DNA of 41,843 nt, taken from NCBI GenBank assembly GCA_018436595.1, contig JAHDLC010000050.1, positions 1 to 41,843 of the forward strand, read 5' to 3'. Below are positions 4,368 through 9,300 of this stretch, piece after piece. The notes under the pieces are model-generated. The model saw only the letters and a program-made list of their open reading frames with translations, made no database searches and was not told where the DNA came from. Origin of the DNA: Synergistaceae bacterium (GTDB taxonomy: Bacteria > Synergistota > Synergistia > Synergistales > Aminobacteriaceae). Made by a program: the position numbers and the translations under genes. Numbering within the stretch: position 1 is the first letter of the stretch; every line of letters begins with the position of its first letter.

Positions 4368-4396
4368 ATTATAAAGAGAGAAATTTCATCTGTCCA
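4368..4396 (-). promoter_or_regulatory. Promoter of the nhaC unit
   Basis: Minus strand TGGACA, 17-nt spacer, TATAAT, eleven of twelve consensus bases. The inferred transcript starts near 4361, which rules out start codons of nhaC upstream of 4309. Confidence 0.88.
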
Positions 4397-4421: not shown

Positions 4422-4449
4422 AAAAAAGGGTGCAGCATAAGCCGCACCC
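4422..4449 (-). terminator. Terminator of the ctsR-clpC operon
   Basis: A 9-bp stem (GGGTGCGGC/GCTGCACCC, one G-U) with a TTAT loop is followed by TTTTTT on the minus strand, 16 nt past the parvulin stop codon. Confidence 0.9.
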
Positions 4450-4465
4450 CGGAAACAGCCTGGAA

Positions 4466-5314
4466 TCAGTGCAAGGGGGTATTCCCGAGAGCAGCTGGTC
4501 TCAAGATCACGGGGAACCGTTTCCGGAGAGAAGCGGCCTCTCCCGAGAGGACTGTCTTTTGAAGGTCAGAGGCTACCAGTTTTTTTGCTTCAGCAAAGGA
4601 GAGAGAACGGCCCTCACTTCGTTCCATCACCTCGAAAATGTAGAATCCGGCGCCTGCTTCCACGGGCCCGAGGACAGTATTGAGCGGGGCGGAGAATACG
4701 AGCCTGTCAAGACTTTCAGGGAGGGTCCCTTCTTCTACCCACCCCGTTTCGCTTCCCGACGCGGATGAGGCTGAATCCTCACTGAGGCGCCCGGCGACGG
4801 AATAGAAATCTTCCCCGGAAAGAAGGGCAAGAAGGGCCGATCTTCCTTTTTCTCCGGAGGTGACAAAAATATGCCTGATCCTGGCGCTTCCTTTGCGGAC
4901 ATATTTTTGCCGGTTCTTTTCATACGCAGCTTTCAGTTCATTGTCACCGAAGGTCAGCCGGGGTTCGAGCGAGGCGATATAGGCATTTGCCAGGAGGTTG
5001 ACCTGGTTCCAGCGCAACTGGGCGGCTATTTTCGGGTCAATGTGGAGTCCCTTGAGAACAGCCCCCCTGGAAAAGAGAAGAGCTGTGGATACTCTCTCGA
5101 GGAAGTCCGCTCGTTCCTCTTCGGTCATTTCTTTTAATCGGAGCGCCGCAAGGGCATCGTTTCCACCAAGTTCCAGGCTGAGCAGATATAAAATCTCATC
5201 CCCGGAAACCTTGTCATCTCCCACTGTAAGGACGGCCTCTTCAGAACCTGCCGCGGGAAGGGCCGCCAGGAGAGAGAGAACAACAAGAAGCCAGAAGACG
5301 GATCGGCATTTCAT
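4466..5314 (-). CDS. Exported parvulin-type peptidyl-prolyl isomerase
   Basis: Probable periplasmic foldase of the SurA/PrsA/PpiC group, 282 residues. A Sec signal peptide covers about residues 1-23 with AAG before the mature part; no lipobox cysteine is seen, so it is likely soluble rather than a lipoprotein. A helical N-terminal segment (25-135) of the SurA_N kind precedes the parvulin domain (about 140-240), which begins ARIRHIFV and contains the expected GWVEEGTLP and glycine-rich turns. GGAGGT precedes the ATG. It lies 15 nt after the SDH-type protease gene and is the last gene of the ctsR operon, suggesting a link between cytosolic stress control and envelope folding. Confidence 0.88.
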   Translation of the reverse strand: MKCRSVFWLLVVLSLLAALPAAGSEEAVLTVGDDKVSGDEILYLLSLELGGNDALAALRLKEMTEEERADFLERVSTALLFSRGAVLKGLHIDPKIAAQLRWNQVNLLANAYIASLEPRLTFGDNELKAAYEKNRQKYVRKGSARIRHIFVTSGEKGRSALLALLSGEDFYSVAGRLSEDSASSASGSETGWVEEGTLPESLDRLVFSAPLNTVLGPVEAGAGFYIFEVMERSEGRSLSFAEAKKLVASDLQKTVLSGEAASLRKRFPVILRPAALGNTPLH

Positions 5315-5329
5315 GGCAGAACCTCCATT

Positions 5330-6175
5330 TCAGTAGATGTCCCTGGGGGAATGGGCGGAGGGGCGGCCGGGGTAGGGCACCGGTATATATTGAACCGAAG
5401 GCCGTGCGGAGGTGGATTGAGGATACAGGCTCATCAGGTTGCAGAAGGAATCCTGATCGTTCGGCACCACAGGCAGACCGAGATCAGCCGCTTCGTCCAC
5501 GGTGATCGGGTAATCATGGGTCCACCGGCCCTCGGTGAGGATCTTCGCCAGTTCCATTCCCTTTTTCTCGCCGAGGCGCTCGGATATCAGTTCATACACA
5601 AGGTCCCGCGTCTGCCGGAGGGCTTTCCCGCTCACGTCAGCGAGAATCAGGGTCTCGTCGTCCACGTCGTTTACTGCCTTGCTTTCCACCGCTTTCAGGA
5701 TGGAGGCTGCCGGATACTTGCCGATCTGCGGATCCACCGGTCCAAGAACAGCGTGCCTGTCCATCAGAATCTCGTCCGCCGCGAGGGCGATGAGGGTGCC
5801 CCCCGACATGGCATAATGGGGTACGACCACCGTCACTTTCGACGGATGCCGCTTCAGAGCCCTGGCAATCTGTTCAGCCGCCAGGAGGAGACCGCCGGGG
5901 GTGTGGATGATGAGGTCGATGGGCGTATCGTCGGAGGTAAGCCGTATCGCCCTCAGCACTTCCTCGGAGTCCTCTATGTTGATGAAATTCCTGGAAAACA
6001 TGCCGAGGAATCCCATGGTTTCCTGGCGATGGATCAGGGTGATGATCCGTGTTCCCCGCCTCTTTTCACAGTTCCTGATGGCGGTCACCCTGCGCCACTG
6101 GATCAGCTGCTGCTTCATCTGGGGAAACACGATGAAAAAAAGGAGAAACAACATCCAGAGTGATGAACCGTCCAT
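5330..6175 (-). CDS. Membrane-anchored SDH-family Clp-fold serine protease
   Basis: A 281-residue protein of the SDH_sah group (Clp/crotonase fold, Ser-Asp-His catalysis). An N-terminal hydrophobic segment (about 5-20) anchors it. The conserved HTPGG is at 91-95, the probable nucleophile Ser124 is in MSGG (123-126), and a His141/Asp148 region (HAVLGPVDPQ) supplies the remaining expected polar residues. The tail of about 45 residues is Pro/Ser-rich. AAGGAGG precedes the ATG. It sits 39 nt after clpC and 15 nt before the parvulin gene without a terminator, so it is co-transcribed with both. Partnership with the ClpC unfoldase is possible but not shown. Confidence 0.88.
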   Translation of the reverse strand: MDGSSLWMLFLLFFIVFPQMKQQLIQWRRVTAIRNCEKRRGTRIITLIHRQETMGFLGMFSRNFINIEDSEEVLRAIRLTSDDTPIDLIIHTPGGLLLAAEQIARALKRHPSKVTVVVPHYAMSGGTLIALAADEILMDRHAVLGPVDPQIGKYPAASILKAVESKAVNDVDDETLILADVSGKALRQTRDLVYELISERLGEKKGMELAKILTEGRWTHDYPITVDEAADLGLPVVPNDQDSFCNLMSLYPQSTSARPSVQYIPVPYPGRPSAHSPRDIY

Positions 6176-6214
6176 GGGATGCCTCCTTCCGCCCGAAGGG
6201 GAAAAGTGGGGTTC

Positions 6215-8707
6215 CTATTTTGAAACCGTTTCGGCCAGGTCGTTTTTCTGTCCCGCGACAGAGCGAAATCTCACTTCATCTCCATCAAGAAACGCTTCGA
6301 TGCTCTTTTCCCGTGTGCTTCCCTTTCCGAGGAGGAAGTCAGCCAGCCTATCCTCGATATGGGTCTGGATTGTCCTCCGGAGAGGCCGGGCCCCGAACTT
6401 CGGCTGATATCCCTTGTCAAGGAGAAAAGACCGCACATCGTCGCCAACCGACAGGACGATGTCCCTGGAGGCAAGCCTGGAGACAACTTCTTCAAGCATG
6501 ATGCTTACGATGGATATCATGTTCTCCCTGTTCAGCGGCCGGAAGACGATCATTTCATCGAGACGGTTGATGAACTCGGGCCGAAATGTCCTGTTCACCT
6601 CATCCATTATCGCGGCCTTGAGCCTGCTCCAGTCGAAGGGGTCTTTCTCGTCTCCCCCGGAAAACCCGAGAGTCGACCCCCTGGCCGCCTCCCTGGCCCC
6701 GACGTTGCTGGTCATGAGGATGACCGTGTTCCGGAAATCCACAGTTCTCCCCTGACCGTCCGTCAGCCGTCCGTCTTCCAGAATCTGGAGCAGTATGTTG
6801 AATATGTCGGGATGGGCCTTTTCGATTTCGTCGAAAAGCACCACCGAGTAGGGTCTCCGCCGGACCGCTTCCGTGAGCTTGCCTCCCTCTTCGTAGCCAA
6901 CGTATCCCGGGGGGGCGCCGATGAGTTTGGAAACTTCGTGTTTTTCCATGAATTCGCTCATGTCAAGACGGATCATGGTATCCTGCGAACCGAAGAGAAA
7001 CTCGGCCAGCCGCCTGGCAAGTTCCGTCTTGCCCACTCCGGTGGGCCCCAGGAGAAGGAAGCTGCCGATGGGCCGCCTGGGGTCTTTGAGGCCGCTCCTG
7101 GCACGCCGTATGGCCCTGGCGACGGAAACCACAGCTTCATTCTGGCCGATGAGCCGCTTCTCAATCTCCTCTTCCATTCGGAGGAGCCGCTCCGATTCCT
7201 CTCCCGTAAGCTGGAAAACCGGTATTCCGGTCCACTCGGCCACCACGTCGGCAATATCCTCACCCGTTACCACAGGCTGGTAGGAGTTTCTCCGGGACCG
7301 CCACTTCCGCCGCTCTTCCTCAAGATCCTCCGAAAGCTTCCTTTCATCATCCCTGAGCCGGGCAGCCTTTTCAAACTCCTGGGAATCAACGGCAGCTTCC
7401 TTTTCCCTCCTGATCTCCTCGAGTTTCTTCTCCATCTCTTTCAGGGATTCAGGGGTCTCCATGGCATTGATCCTTGCCCTGGCGGCCGCCTCGTCGATGA
7501 GATCTATCCCCTTGTCCGGAAGATGACGGTCGGTGATGTACCGGGCGGAAAGCCGTGCGGCAGCCTCAAGGGCATCGTCCTGTATCTTCGCCCTGTGATG
7601 GGATTCATACCGGTCACGAAGGCCTTCAAGGATAAGAATGGAGTCGTCAACGCTCGGTTCCTGGACATGAACGGGCTGAAAACGTCGCTCAAGGGCGGCG
7701 TCCTTTTCGATATGCTTCCGGTATTCGTCCAGCGTAGTGGCCCCGATGACCTGAAACTCTCCCCGGGAAAGACTTGGCTTGAGAATGTTGGCGGCATCAA
7801 CGGCCCCTTCTGCCCCTCCCGCTCCGACAATGGTGTGGATCTCGTCGATGAAGAGGATGACGTCCCTGGCCTCGGACAGTTCCTTCACCAGTTTTCTCAT
7901 GCGCTCCTCGAACTCTCCGCGGTACTTGGTTCCTGCCACAAGGTTCCCCATGTTGAGCTGCATGACCTTTTTGTCTTTGAGAATCTCCGGTATGTCCCCG
8001 TCGGAAATTTTCTGGGCAAGCCCTTCCACGATGGCCGTCTTGCCCACTCCCGGGTCACCGATCAGCACCGGGTTGTTTTTCGTCCTTCTCGATAGGATCT
8101 GGATTATCCTCCGGATCTCCTTGACTCTTCCGATCACGGGATCGAGTTCGCCGTTCCTGCTCTTTTCGCTCAGGTCGAGAGCAAGCTGATCCAGGGTCGG
8201 CGTCTTCGTCCGGCCCTTTTTGCGGCCTGTCTCCGCCGGCGGCTCCGTTCCCCGGTCTCCGTCACTGTCGGCTCCGCCGAGAAACCGCTGGACTTCCCTG
8301 ACAACCTGGGCGTGGTCGACGCCTACGGACTGGAGCATCTGGGCCGCCATGCCCTCCCCTTCAGCGAGGATACCCAGAAGGATATGCTCCGTTCCGACAT
8401 AATTGACTCCCATGTTCCGGGCTTCCCGGATGGAAAGATCCAGCACCCGTTTCGCTCTCGGGCTGAGGGGAAGATCCACCGGCTTGAGGATGGGATGGGA
8501 TTTGCCGACCGACTCCTCGATACGGAGTCTCATCTCGTGAAGATTGATCCCGAGGGATTCCATGGACTGCACCGCAGCACCTTCCCCTTCGGCAAGTATG
8601 CCGAGAAGGATGTGCTCCGTTCCGATAACGTCGTGCCCGAGGCGAAGAGCTTCCCTGTGGGCAAGCTGGACTACTTTTTTTCCCCTCTCAGTGAAAAACT
8701 GCCACAT
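6215..8707 (-). CDS. clpC: ATP-dependent unfoldase ClpC
   Basis: AAA+ Hsp100 unfoldase that feeds substrates to ClpP, 830 residues, the usual ClpC length. Two Clp-N repeats occupy about 5-140. The first AAA domain has Walker A GDPGVGKT (217-224) and Walker B FIDEIH. A UVR-type coiled segment at about 425-470 marks ClpC rather than ClpB. The second AAA domain has Walker A GPTGVGKT (554-561), Walker [10 protein letters not shown] and a C-terminal Clp-D2 region. It begins 47 nt after ctsR, with an AAGGATG ribosome site. No clpP is in the window; the next gene encodes a different Clp-fold protease. Transcription is probably repressed by CtsR through the upstream operator. Confidence 0.97.
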
Positions 8708-8754
8708 GATTCATCATCCTTTGTCTCTCCCGGTCAGGGAGTCTCTCCTTTGGT

Positions 8755-9234
8755 TCACGCCAGGGCCAGGCTCCGGAGCATTCTCTTCAGAAGCTCTGCC
8801 TGTATGGCGTTCCTTTTGTAGGGCGACACGTCGAATTCCGAACTCCCGAGCTCGTCGGCGTGCCGGAGGGCGACCTCGATAAGGATCCGCTCCCGGGAAT
8901 CGATCATGCCCCGTTCCTGGAGCGATGTCAGGAGGCGCTTTGCCTCCTGGTCGGTAACGGCATCCCCCACTATTTCTTCTATATGGTTGATTCTTTCCTC
9001 CGGAATATCGTAACAGAGCCTGAATATCCGGATATATCCATGGCCGCCTCTCTGGCTTTCCACGATATAGCCTCGCTCGGGGGTAAAACGGCTTCTGAGG
9101 ACGTAGTTGATCTGGCTGGGCACACATCCGAAGATTTCGGCCAGCTCCTTTCTCCGGAGCGACACGGCCTGTTCGTCCATCTCGGAAAAAAGGTTGTTGA
9201 TATAGTTTTCAATGACTCTCGTCAGACTCGCCAT
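8755..9234 (-). CDS. ctsR: Transcriptional repressor CtsR
   Basis: Heat-shock repressor of clp genes, 159 residues. The N-terminal winged HTH includes QINYVLRSRF, and the conserved DNA-contacting glycine loop is present as RGGHGYIRI near 63-71 (usually GGGGYIRI, so one glycine is replaced by histidine). A helical C-terminal dimer region follows. GGAGGG precedes the ATG. A probable CtsR box overlaps the promoter, implying autoregulation. In Bacillus the gene is followed by mcsA and mcsB, whose arginine kinase inactivates CtsR; here clpC follows directly, so another inactivation route must be used, or the kinase is encoded elsewhere. Confidence 0.93.
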   Translation of the reverse strand: MASLTRVIENYINNLFSEMDEQAVSLRRKELAEIFGCVPSQINYVLRSRFTPERGYIVESQRGGHGYIRIFRLCYDIPEERINHIEEIVGDAVTDQEAKRLLTSLQERGMIDSRERILIEVALRHADELGSSEFDVSPYKRNAIQAELLKRMLRSLALA

Positions 9235-9270
9235 GGCACTTCCCTCCAGACGTAAAATTTCCCGATGATT

Positions 9271-9299
9271 ATTCTACGCCATTGGTCAGCATTAGTCAA
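9271..9299 (-). promoter_or_regulatory. Promoter of the ctsR-clpC operon
   Basis: Minus strand TTGACT, 17-nt spacer, TAGAAT. The ctsR start is 37 nt beyond the -10, with a standard ribosome site between. Confidence 0.9.
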
Positions 9300-9300
9300 T
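9284..9300 (+). promoter_or_regulatory. Probable CtsR operator (CtsR box)
   Basis: The plus strand reads GGTCAGC-ATT-AGTCAAT, a tandem heptad matching the known CtsR consensus RGTCAAA-NAN-RGTCAAA except at the last two bases of the first heptad, the final base of the second, and the last spacer position. It covers the -35 box and much of the spacer, the expected place for repression. Confidence 0.8.

Follow-up and report, generated by a model that had tools for sequence, protein, structure and literature searches.

The window (the whole stretch of DNA that was analyzed, 41,843 nucleotides) belongs to a Synergistaceae bacterium of the diderm phylum Synergistota, whose genome (G000) is a 3.2-Mb draft of 50 contigs with a completeness of 100%. 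Part of it carries four minus-strand genes between one promoter with a CtsR box and one terminator, as a preliminary description of the locus had claimed; domain matches, intergenic gaps, and the reading of promoter and terminator confirm this layout. The features are as follows.

8755 to 9234, minus strand: ctsR, encoding a winged helix-turn-helix domain with an R62-GGHG wing loop and a C-terminal dimerization domain (PF05848, 112 bits; PF17727, 56 bits)
6215 to 8707, minus strand: clpC, encoding an AAA+ unfoldase with an LGF ClpP-binding tripeptide and with the phosphoarginine-site glutamates E31 and E107 retained
5330 to 6175, minus strand: sdh, encoding a serine protease of the ClpP/SppA fold with an N-terminal transmembrane helix and invariant S124, H220, and D221
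4466 to 5314, minus strand: ppi, encoding a parvulin-type peptidyl-prolyl isomerase (PF13145), predicted to be exported (signal peptide recognized by eye, no lipobox)
9284 to 9300, minus strand: predicted CtsR-type operator, a direct repeat ATTGACT-N3-GCTGACC over the -35 (25.4 bits)
9271 to 9299, minus strand: promoter of the ctsR operon, TTGACT-17-TAGAAT (10 of 12 matches)
4427 to 4450, minus strand: intrinsic terminator at the end of the operon, a stem of 10 pairs followed by T residues in a run
4368 to 4396, minus strand: promoter TGGACA-17-TATAAT, outside the operon, serving the downstream antiporter gene nhaC (NhaC, 412 bits)

The gaps between ctsR, clpC, sdh, and the parvulin gene are 47, 39, and 15 bp, and a strong minus-strand terminator is found only 3' of the parvulin gene. 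The ctsR product matches both PF05848 and PF17727 above their cut-offs and can be aligned over its full length with the CtsR structure 3h0d; its named relatives are all Synergistaceae or Synergistales. The clpC product has the composition of a ClpC-type Hsp100 protein (two Clp_N domains, AAA, a UVR-containing middle region, and D2-small with the ClpP-binding loop), and its top PDB match is B. subtilis ClpC. The LGF loop, at residue 680, makes ClpP, whose gene lies elsewhere in the genome, its probable usual partner. In an AAA_2 search of this genome, ClpC and ClpB are the only two-domain Clp ATPases, accompanied by ClpX, HslU-like, and Lon-like frames.

A CtsR-box matrix (TTGACT-N5-TGACC) was trained on the ctsR promoters of the phylum, and the same promoters were then scored. 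The box is above the 99.9% shuffle level in 90 of these 100 promoters, but since the matrix was trained on them, independent support comes from the spacing of the -10, from control regions, and from the smpB sites described below. A -10 with at least 5 of 6 matches lies 16 to 18 bp past TTGACT in 87 of the 90 promoters with a box (other spacings, 2 to 4 of 90), and only 1 of 224 control upstream regions (of plsY, clpC, sdh, and parvulin genes) contains the box. Based on this spacing and these controls, we conclude that the repeat covers the -35 element of an ordinary promoter. Bacillus CtsR has likewise been described as repressing from a repeat over the -35 of a promoter (PMC12634643). In the window, the heptad direct repeat is near the core promoter of ctsR itself, and it is the best site of the 41.8 kb, since the next site reaches 12.3 bits.

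Neither mcsA nor mcsB lies between ctsR and clpC, and their absence, noted in the preliminary description, holds for the genome as a whole. A profile search for the McsB kinase gave no PF00217 match anywhere in the window's genome. The same search is positive in 43 of 151 Synergistota genomes, and the match adjoins ctsR wherever the neighborhood was read. Among the built-in controls, CtsR was detected only in Lactococcus and PF00217 in 0 of 14, so the absence of McsB rests on the positives within the phylum. The McsA profile search of the window's genome gave only UVR-tail matches, which lie in ClpC and in two long UvrB/UvrC-like frames of 796 and 540 codons. Copies of mcsAB elsewhere in the genome, the finding that the preliminary description had named as speaking against it, were searched for and did not turn up.

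The arginine phosphatase follows the same pattern. We take the signature GNTCRSPMA in low-molecular-weight (LMW) phosphatase genes to denote the arginine-phosphatase (YwlE) type. Of the 32 genomes that encode active McsB, 29 have the motif CxGNTCRSPMA (the remainder are G005, in which none was seen, G002, and G003); where active McsB is missing, 30 phosphatase loci were read, and none has it. These 30 loci have GNICRSPMA (tyrosine type) or ArsC-like motifs, with one showing none; matches in G038, G040, G044, G050, and G081 fall outside this motif reading. The sole LMW phosphatase of the window's genome is ArsC-like (GNSCRSQ). A protein-arginine-phosphorylation system, that is, an active McsB kinase with a YwlE-type phosphatase, was thus not found in this genome, and the fact that the YwlE type occurs only alongside active McsB argues that the whole pathway was lost. 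The co-loss comprises three independent events only, and a sign test on these is too small for significance.

Gene order was read in about 100 neighborhoods from the survey of 151 genomes. The order ctsR-mcsA-mcsB-clpC is found in families f3, f5 to f8, f11, and f12 and in part of f2 and f9; f2 genera g33, g41, and g48 have the same order with a divergent McsB. Most remaining f2 genera have ctsR-mcsA-clpC, and ctsR-clpC is the order in f1 (including the window), f4, f10, one f9 genome, and f2 genus g31. The sdh gene is 3' of clpC alongside mcsAB in the deepest branch, f11, as well as in f3, f5, f6, f7, and part of f2; it is also 3' of clpC in f1, and the parvulin gene is next in many genomes. 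These comparisons indicate that the ancestral order is ctsR-mcsA-mcsB-clpC-sdh, often with ppi after it, the parvulin gene being present in many lineages. Since sdh stands beside intact mcsAB, including in f11, the order in the window is that of the ancestral operon minus mcsAB. A tree of ClpC plus CtsR places one mcsAB loss at the base of the window's clade (f1, f4, and f10; support, 99) and at least three losses of active McsB in the phylum. The window's clade has lost mcsA, mcsB, and the YwlE-type phosphatase and has retained ctsR, its predicted operator, and clpC; the window's genus has retained sdh and the parvulin gene too. Genome G106 has two ctsR copies on separate contigs.

The divergent McsB homologues occupy the usual operon slot (L124, L126, L127, and L170 to L176). 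Compared with Geobacillus McsB (6fh1), all 10 have lost the catalytic Cys (SCPTN is replaced by NPxY or similar), the GEGSE glutamate, and the SSRIRLAR arginine pattern. They retain open frames, the slot itself, and a good part of the SxxKLGxDxG region at the C terminus, and they score ~198 bits with the NCBIfam model, compared with a cut-off of 385 and with 458 for intact McsB. Judged by these residues, they look like pseudokinases. Their genomes have no LMW phosphatase match at all, and we found no paper on a kinase-dead McsB in the open-access literature searched. Where McsA is encoded without McsB between ctsR and clpC (L077, L078, L089, L112, and other f2 loci), it is shorter, with three CxxC pairs rather than four.

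The search for further CtsR boxes that the preliminary description had proposed was run and yielded additional sites. A strict pattern scan of the window's genome detects the ctsR site and one other, TTGACTAATACTGACT, at G000:C37:182278-182293 (L226:1501), 47 bp before smpB and over the -35 of its promoter (TTGACT-17-TAAAAT). The smpB gene is directly followed by ssrA, which encodes tmRNA with the tag ADTKTNVNNNNYALAA. Across the family, the box pattern has 41 matches, compared with 5 for the reversed pattern. In ~65 smpB upstream regions, the site has one orientation and a near-constant distance across families, down to the root of the phylum, with and without McsB. It is present in f1 (g1, g3, g5, g16, and g19), f3, f4, f5, f6, f9, f10, and f11; the f2 version is degraded, and genus g2 has none. 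As at ctsR, the site lies over the -35 in the window's clade. A pair of weaker CtsR-like repeats flanks the dnaK promoter (L328:1964-2023 [G000:C44], L329, and L330) and is shared by three genomes from the genus of the window that differ in the flanking sequence. These sites suggest that CtsR control reaches past the window to smpB-ssrA and perhaps to dnaK. The clpP gene, which the preliminary description had also proposed to look for, was found beside clpX at G000:C26, outside the window, and no CtsR box was seen with it. As CtsR targets, clpP and clpB were rejected, with no site of at least 11 of 14 matches in the stretches read, which extend neither to the region 5' of the trigger-factor-like frame that precedes clpP nor to that 5' of the clpB start. 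CtsR control of smpB has no evident report in the open-access literature searched. The smpB-ssrA box would link the CtsR response to stalled-ribosome rescue in a testable way.

The window's CtsR keeps the wing loop R62-G63-G64-H-G66. Among 49 CtsRs from genomes without McsAB, R62 is present in 48, G63 and G66 are present in all 49, and G64, the wing-loop residue tested in Bacillus, is present in 36. Residue 64 is Glu in 13 of the 49 (genus g2 and near relatives in f1, not the window); in most of the genomes that encode such a Glu64 CtsR, sdh and the smpB box are missing as well. The CtsR of Lactococcus works without McsAB, itself sensing heat. Oenococcus CtsR, which functions without McsA, McsB, and ClpE, is documented as a direct heat sensor that is inactive above 33°C, and it interacts with ClpL1 (PMC6305308). 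In Bacillus, heat-driven release from DNA via the glycine-rich loop comes first, and McsB/ClpCP then acts on the free CtsR (PMC12634643). The earlier statement that McsB inactivates Bacillus CtsR needs correction, since in this published model the primary off-switch is not McsB. It was rightly proposed that the repressor in the window is relieved without arginine phosphorylation, as mcsA and mcsB are absent genome-wide. Because the wing loop of these heat-sensing CtsRs without McsAB is kept here, intrinsic heat sensing followed by Clp clearance would be the likeliest and simplest mechanism of relief.

We estimate a probability of about two in three for the following account, in which the window contains the Synergistota version of the CtsR (class III heat-shock) operon, with its protein-arginine-phosphorylation branch lost. 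A CtsR dimer bound to the repeat would cover the -35 and so block the promoter at growth temperature. Heat would loosen the glycine-containing wing loop, CtsR would leave the DNA, and Clp ATPases (ClpX, or ClpC together with the distantly encoded ClpP) would refold or remove the free protein with no arginine-phosphate tag. Derepression would raise ClpC, a membrane-tethered protease with a cytosolic catalytic domain, and a periplasmic foldase, so that cytosol and envelope are covered, and smpB-ssrA, under the same CtsR, would raise stalled-ribosome rescue simultaneously. Three observations count against this explanation: the Glu at residue 64 in 13 of the 49 CtsRs, the gains and losses of sdh and the parvulin gene described below, and the state of ClpC. 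We had considered that the phosphoarginine pocket of ClpC is lost where McsB is missing, but equivalents of E32/E106 are kept in nearly all such genomes. Either something besides arginine phosphorylation maintains these glutamates or there is a different source of phosphorylation.

A possible, though doubtful, alternative is that a Clp ATPase or an unrecognized adaptor has taken over from McsAB and actively strips CtsR from DNA. Analogues would be ClpE in Lactococcus, ClpL1 as proposed in Oenococcus, and ClpX in Bacillus. The window's genome has both ClpC and ClpX, and release of B. subtilis CtsR also needs ClpX (PMC12634643), but the AAA_2 search revealed no ClpE or ClpL candidate, and the genomes of the window's clade show no new conserved gene in the place of mcsAB.

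The preliminary description had presented the protease and foldase as the operon's own. Instead, the occurrence of sdh 3' of clpC with intact mcsAB, including in f11, makes them ancestral partners, and for the same reason we rejected sdh and the parvulin gene as replacements for mcsAB. The sdh product matches its family over the full length (PF01972, 400 bits; NCBIfam Clp_like_SDH, NF047768, 402 bits with a cut-off of 250), and S124 (in 24 sequences), H220, and D221 are invariant. A PDB sequence search gave no real match; SppA and ClpP are the nearest folds only by a structure model of moderate confidence (pLDDT, 76). The single N-terminal helix is followed by basic residues, which by the positive-inside rule we read as a cytosolic catalytic domain. 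In one genome of the same genus (G145; L003 and L166), the frame is interrupted by a stop, from either a pseudogene or a sequencing error. Both genes could be passengers that are read through from the ctsR promoter and have no functional tie to ClpC, and each is absent 3' of clpC from many genomes, with 7 (sdh) and 12 (parvulin) changes on the tree. We consider this unlikely, since sdh is 3' of clpC in f11, f7, f3, f5, f6, f2, and f1, every full-length (>350-bit) SDH match in f1 adjoins ctsR-clpC, and the window has no terminator between clpC and sdh. Because the two genes come and go, any functional tie to ClpC would be loose. A partnership of ClpC and SDH is possible but unsupported, and joint quality control of cytosol, membrane, and periplasm is plausible given the conserved gene order.

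It is improbable that CtsR here answers mainly to a signal other than heat, such as thiol or nutrient stress: a predicted CodY-like regulon in Synergistetes does include a CtsR-family gene (PMC9318921), but the heat-sensing wing loop is conserved and the sites control chaperone, protease, and ribosome-rescue genes. That mcsAB were overlooked through an assembly gap or extreme divergence is very unlikely, since, although the genome is a draft of 50 contigs, its completeness is 100%, no f1, f4, or f10 genome searched has a match, and even the degenerate, kinase-dead McsB was found elsewhere with an E value of ~1e-25.

Loss of the arginine-phosphorylation branch in the window may be one outcome of a wider process. 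Synergistota would show a stepwise dismantling of arginine phosphorylation, from the full system to kinase-dead McsB with McsA and no phosphatase, to McsA alone, to nothing, with CtsR control of ClpC persisting throughout and also governing trans-translation (smpB-ssrA); we regard this as evenly poised. If it is true, McsA and McsB have a conserved noncatalytic adaptor role, and the regulon ancestrally included the connection between CtsR and ribosome rescue. Regulation by CtsR in the absence of McsAB is of a kind described before; what looks new is the smpB-ssrA site and, across the phylum, the series that includes stages with a pseudokinase or with McsA alone. With one repressor and one operator in four operon states, the phylum is a natural series for how CtsR works without the arginine-phosphorylation enzymes, in which the role of each part is testable by comparison and swaps; it bears on CtsR relief without McsB and on roles of McsA and McsB besides catalysis.

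Compared with class III operons of the McsAB type, the window shares CtsR autoregulation, a repeat operator overlapping the promoter, and clpC as the last core gene, and other members of its phylum have the exact core. In contrast, mcsA, mcsB, and the YwlE-type phosphatase are gone, sdh and the parvulin gene are added downstream, and clpP has no visible CtsR box in the stretches read. The window's sdh resembles the SDH family of Clp-fold serine proteinases (PF01972 and NF047768) in its full-length match, its modeled ClpP/SppA fold, and its Ser/His/Asp candidates, and differs in its conserved place after clpC under CtsR. With the CtsR of Oenococcus oeni and Lactococcus lactis, the window shares regulation without McsA/McsB and a conserved wing loop. 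It differs from these in belonging to another phylum with diderm cells and in having no ClpE or ClpL candidate seen, and in Synergistota the loss is reconstructed as independent, with intermediates surviving.
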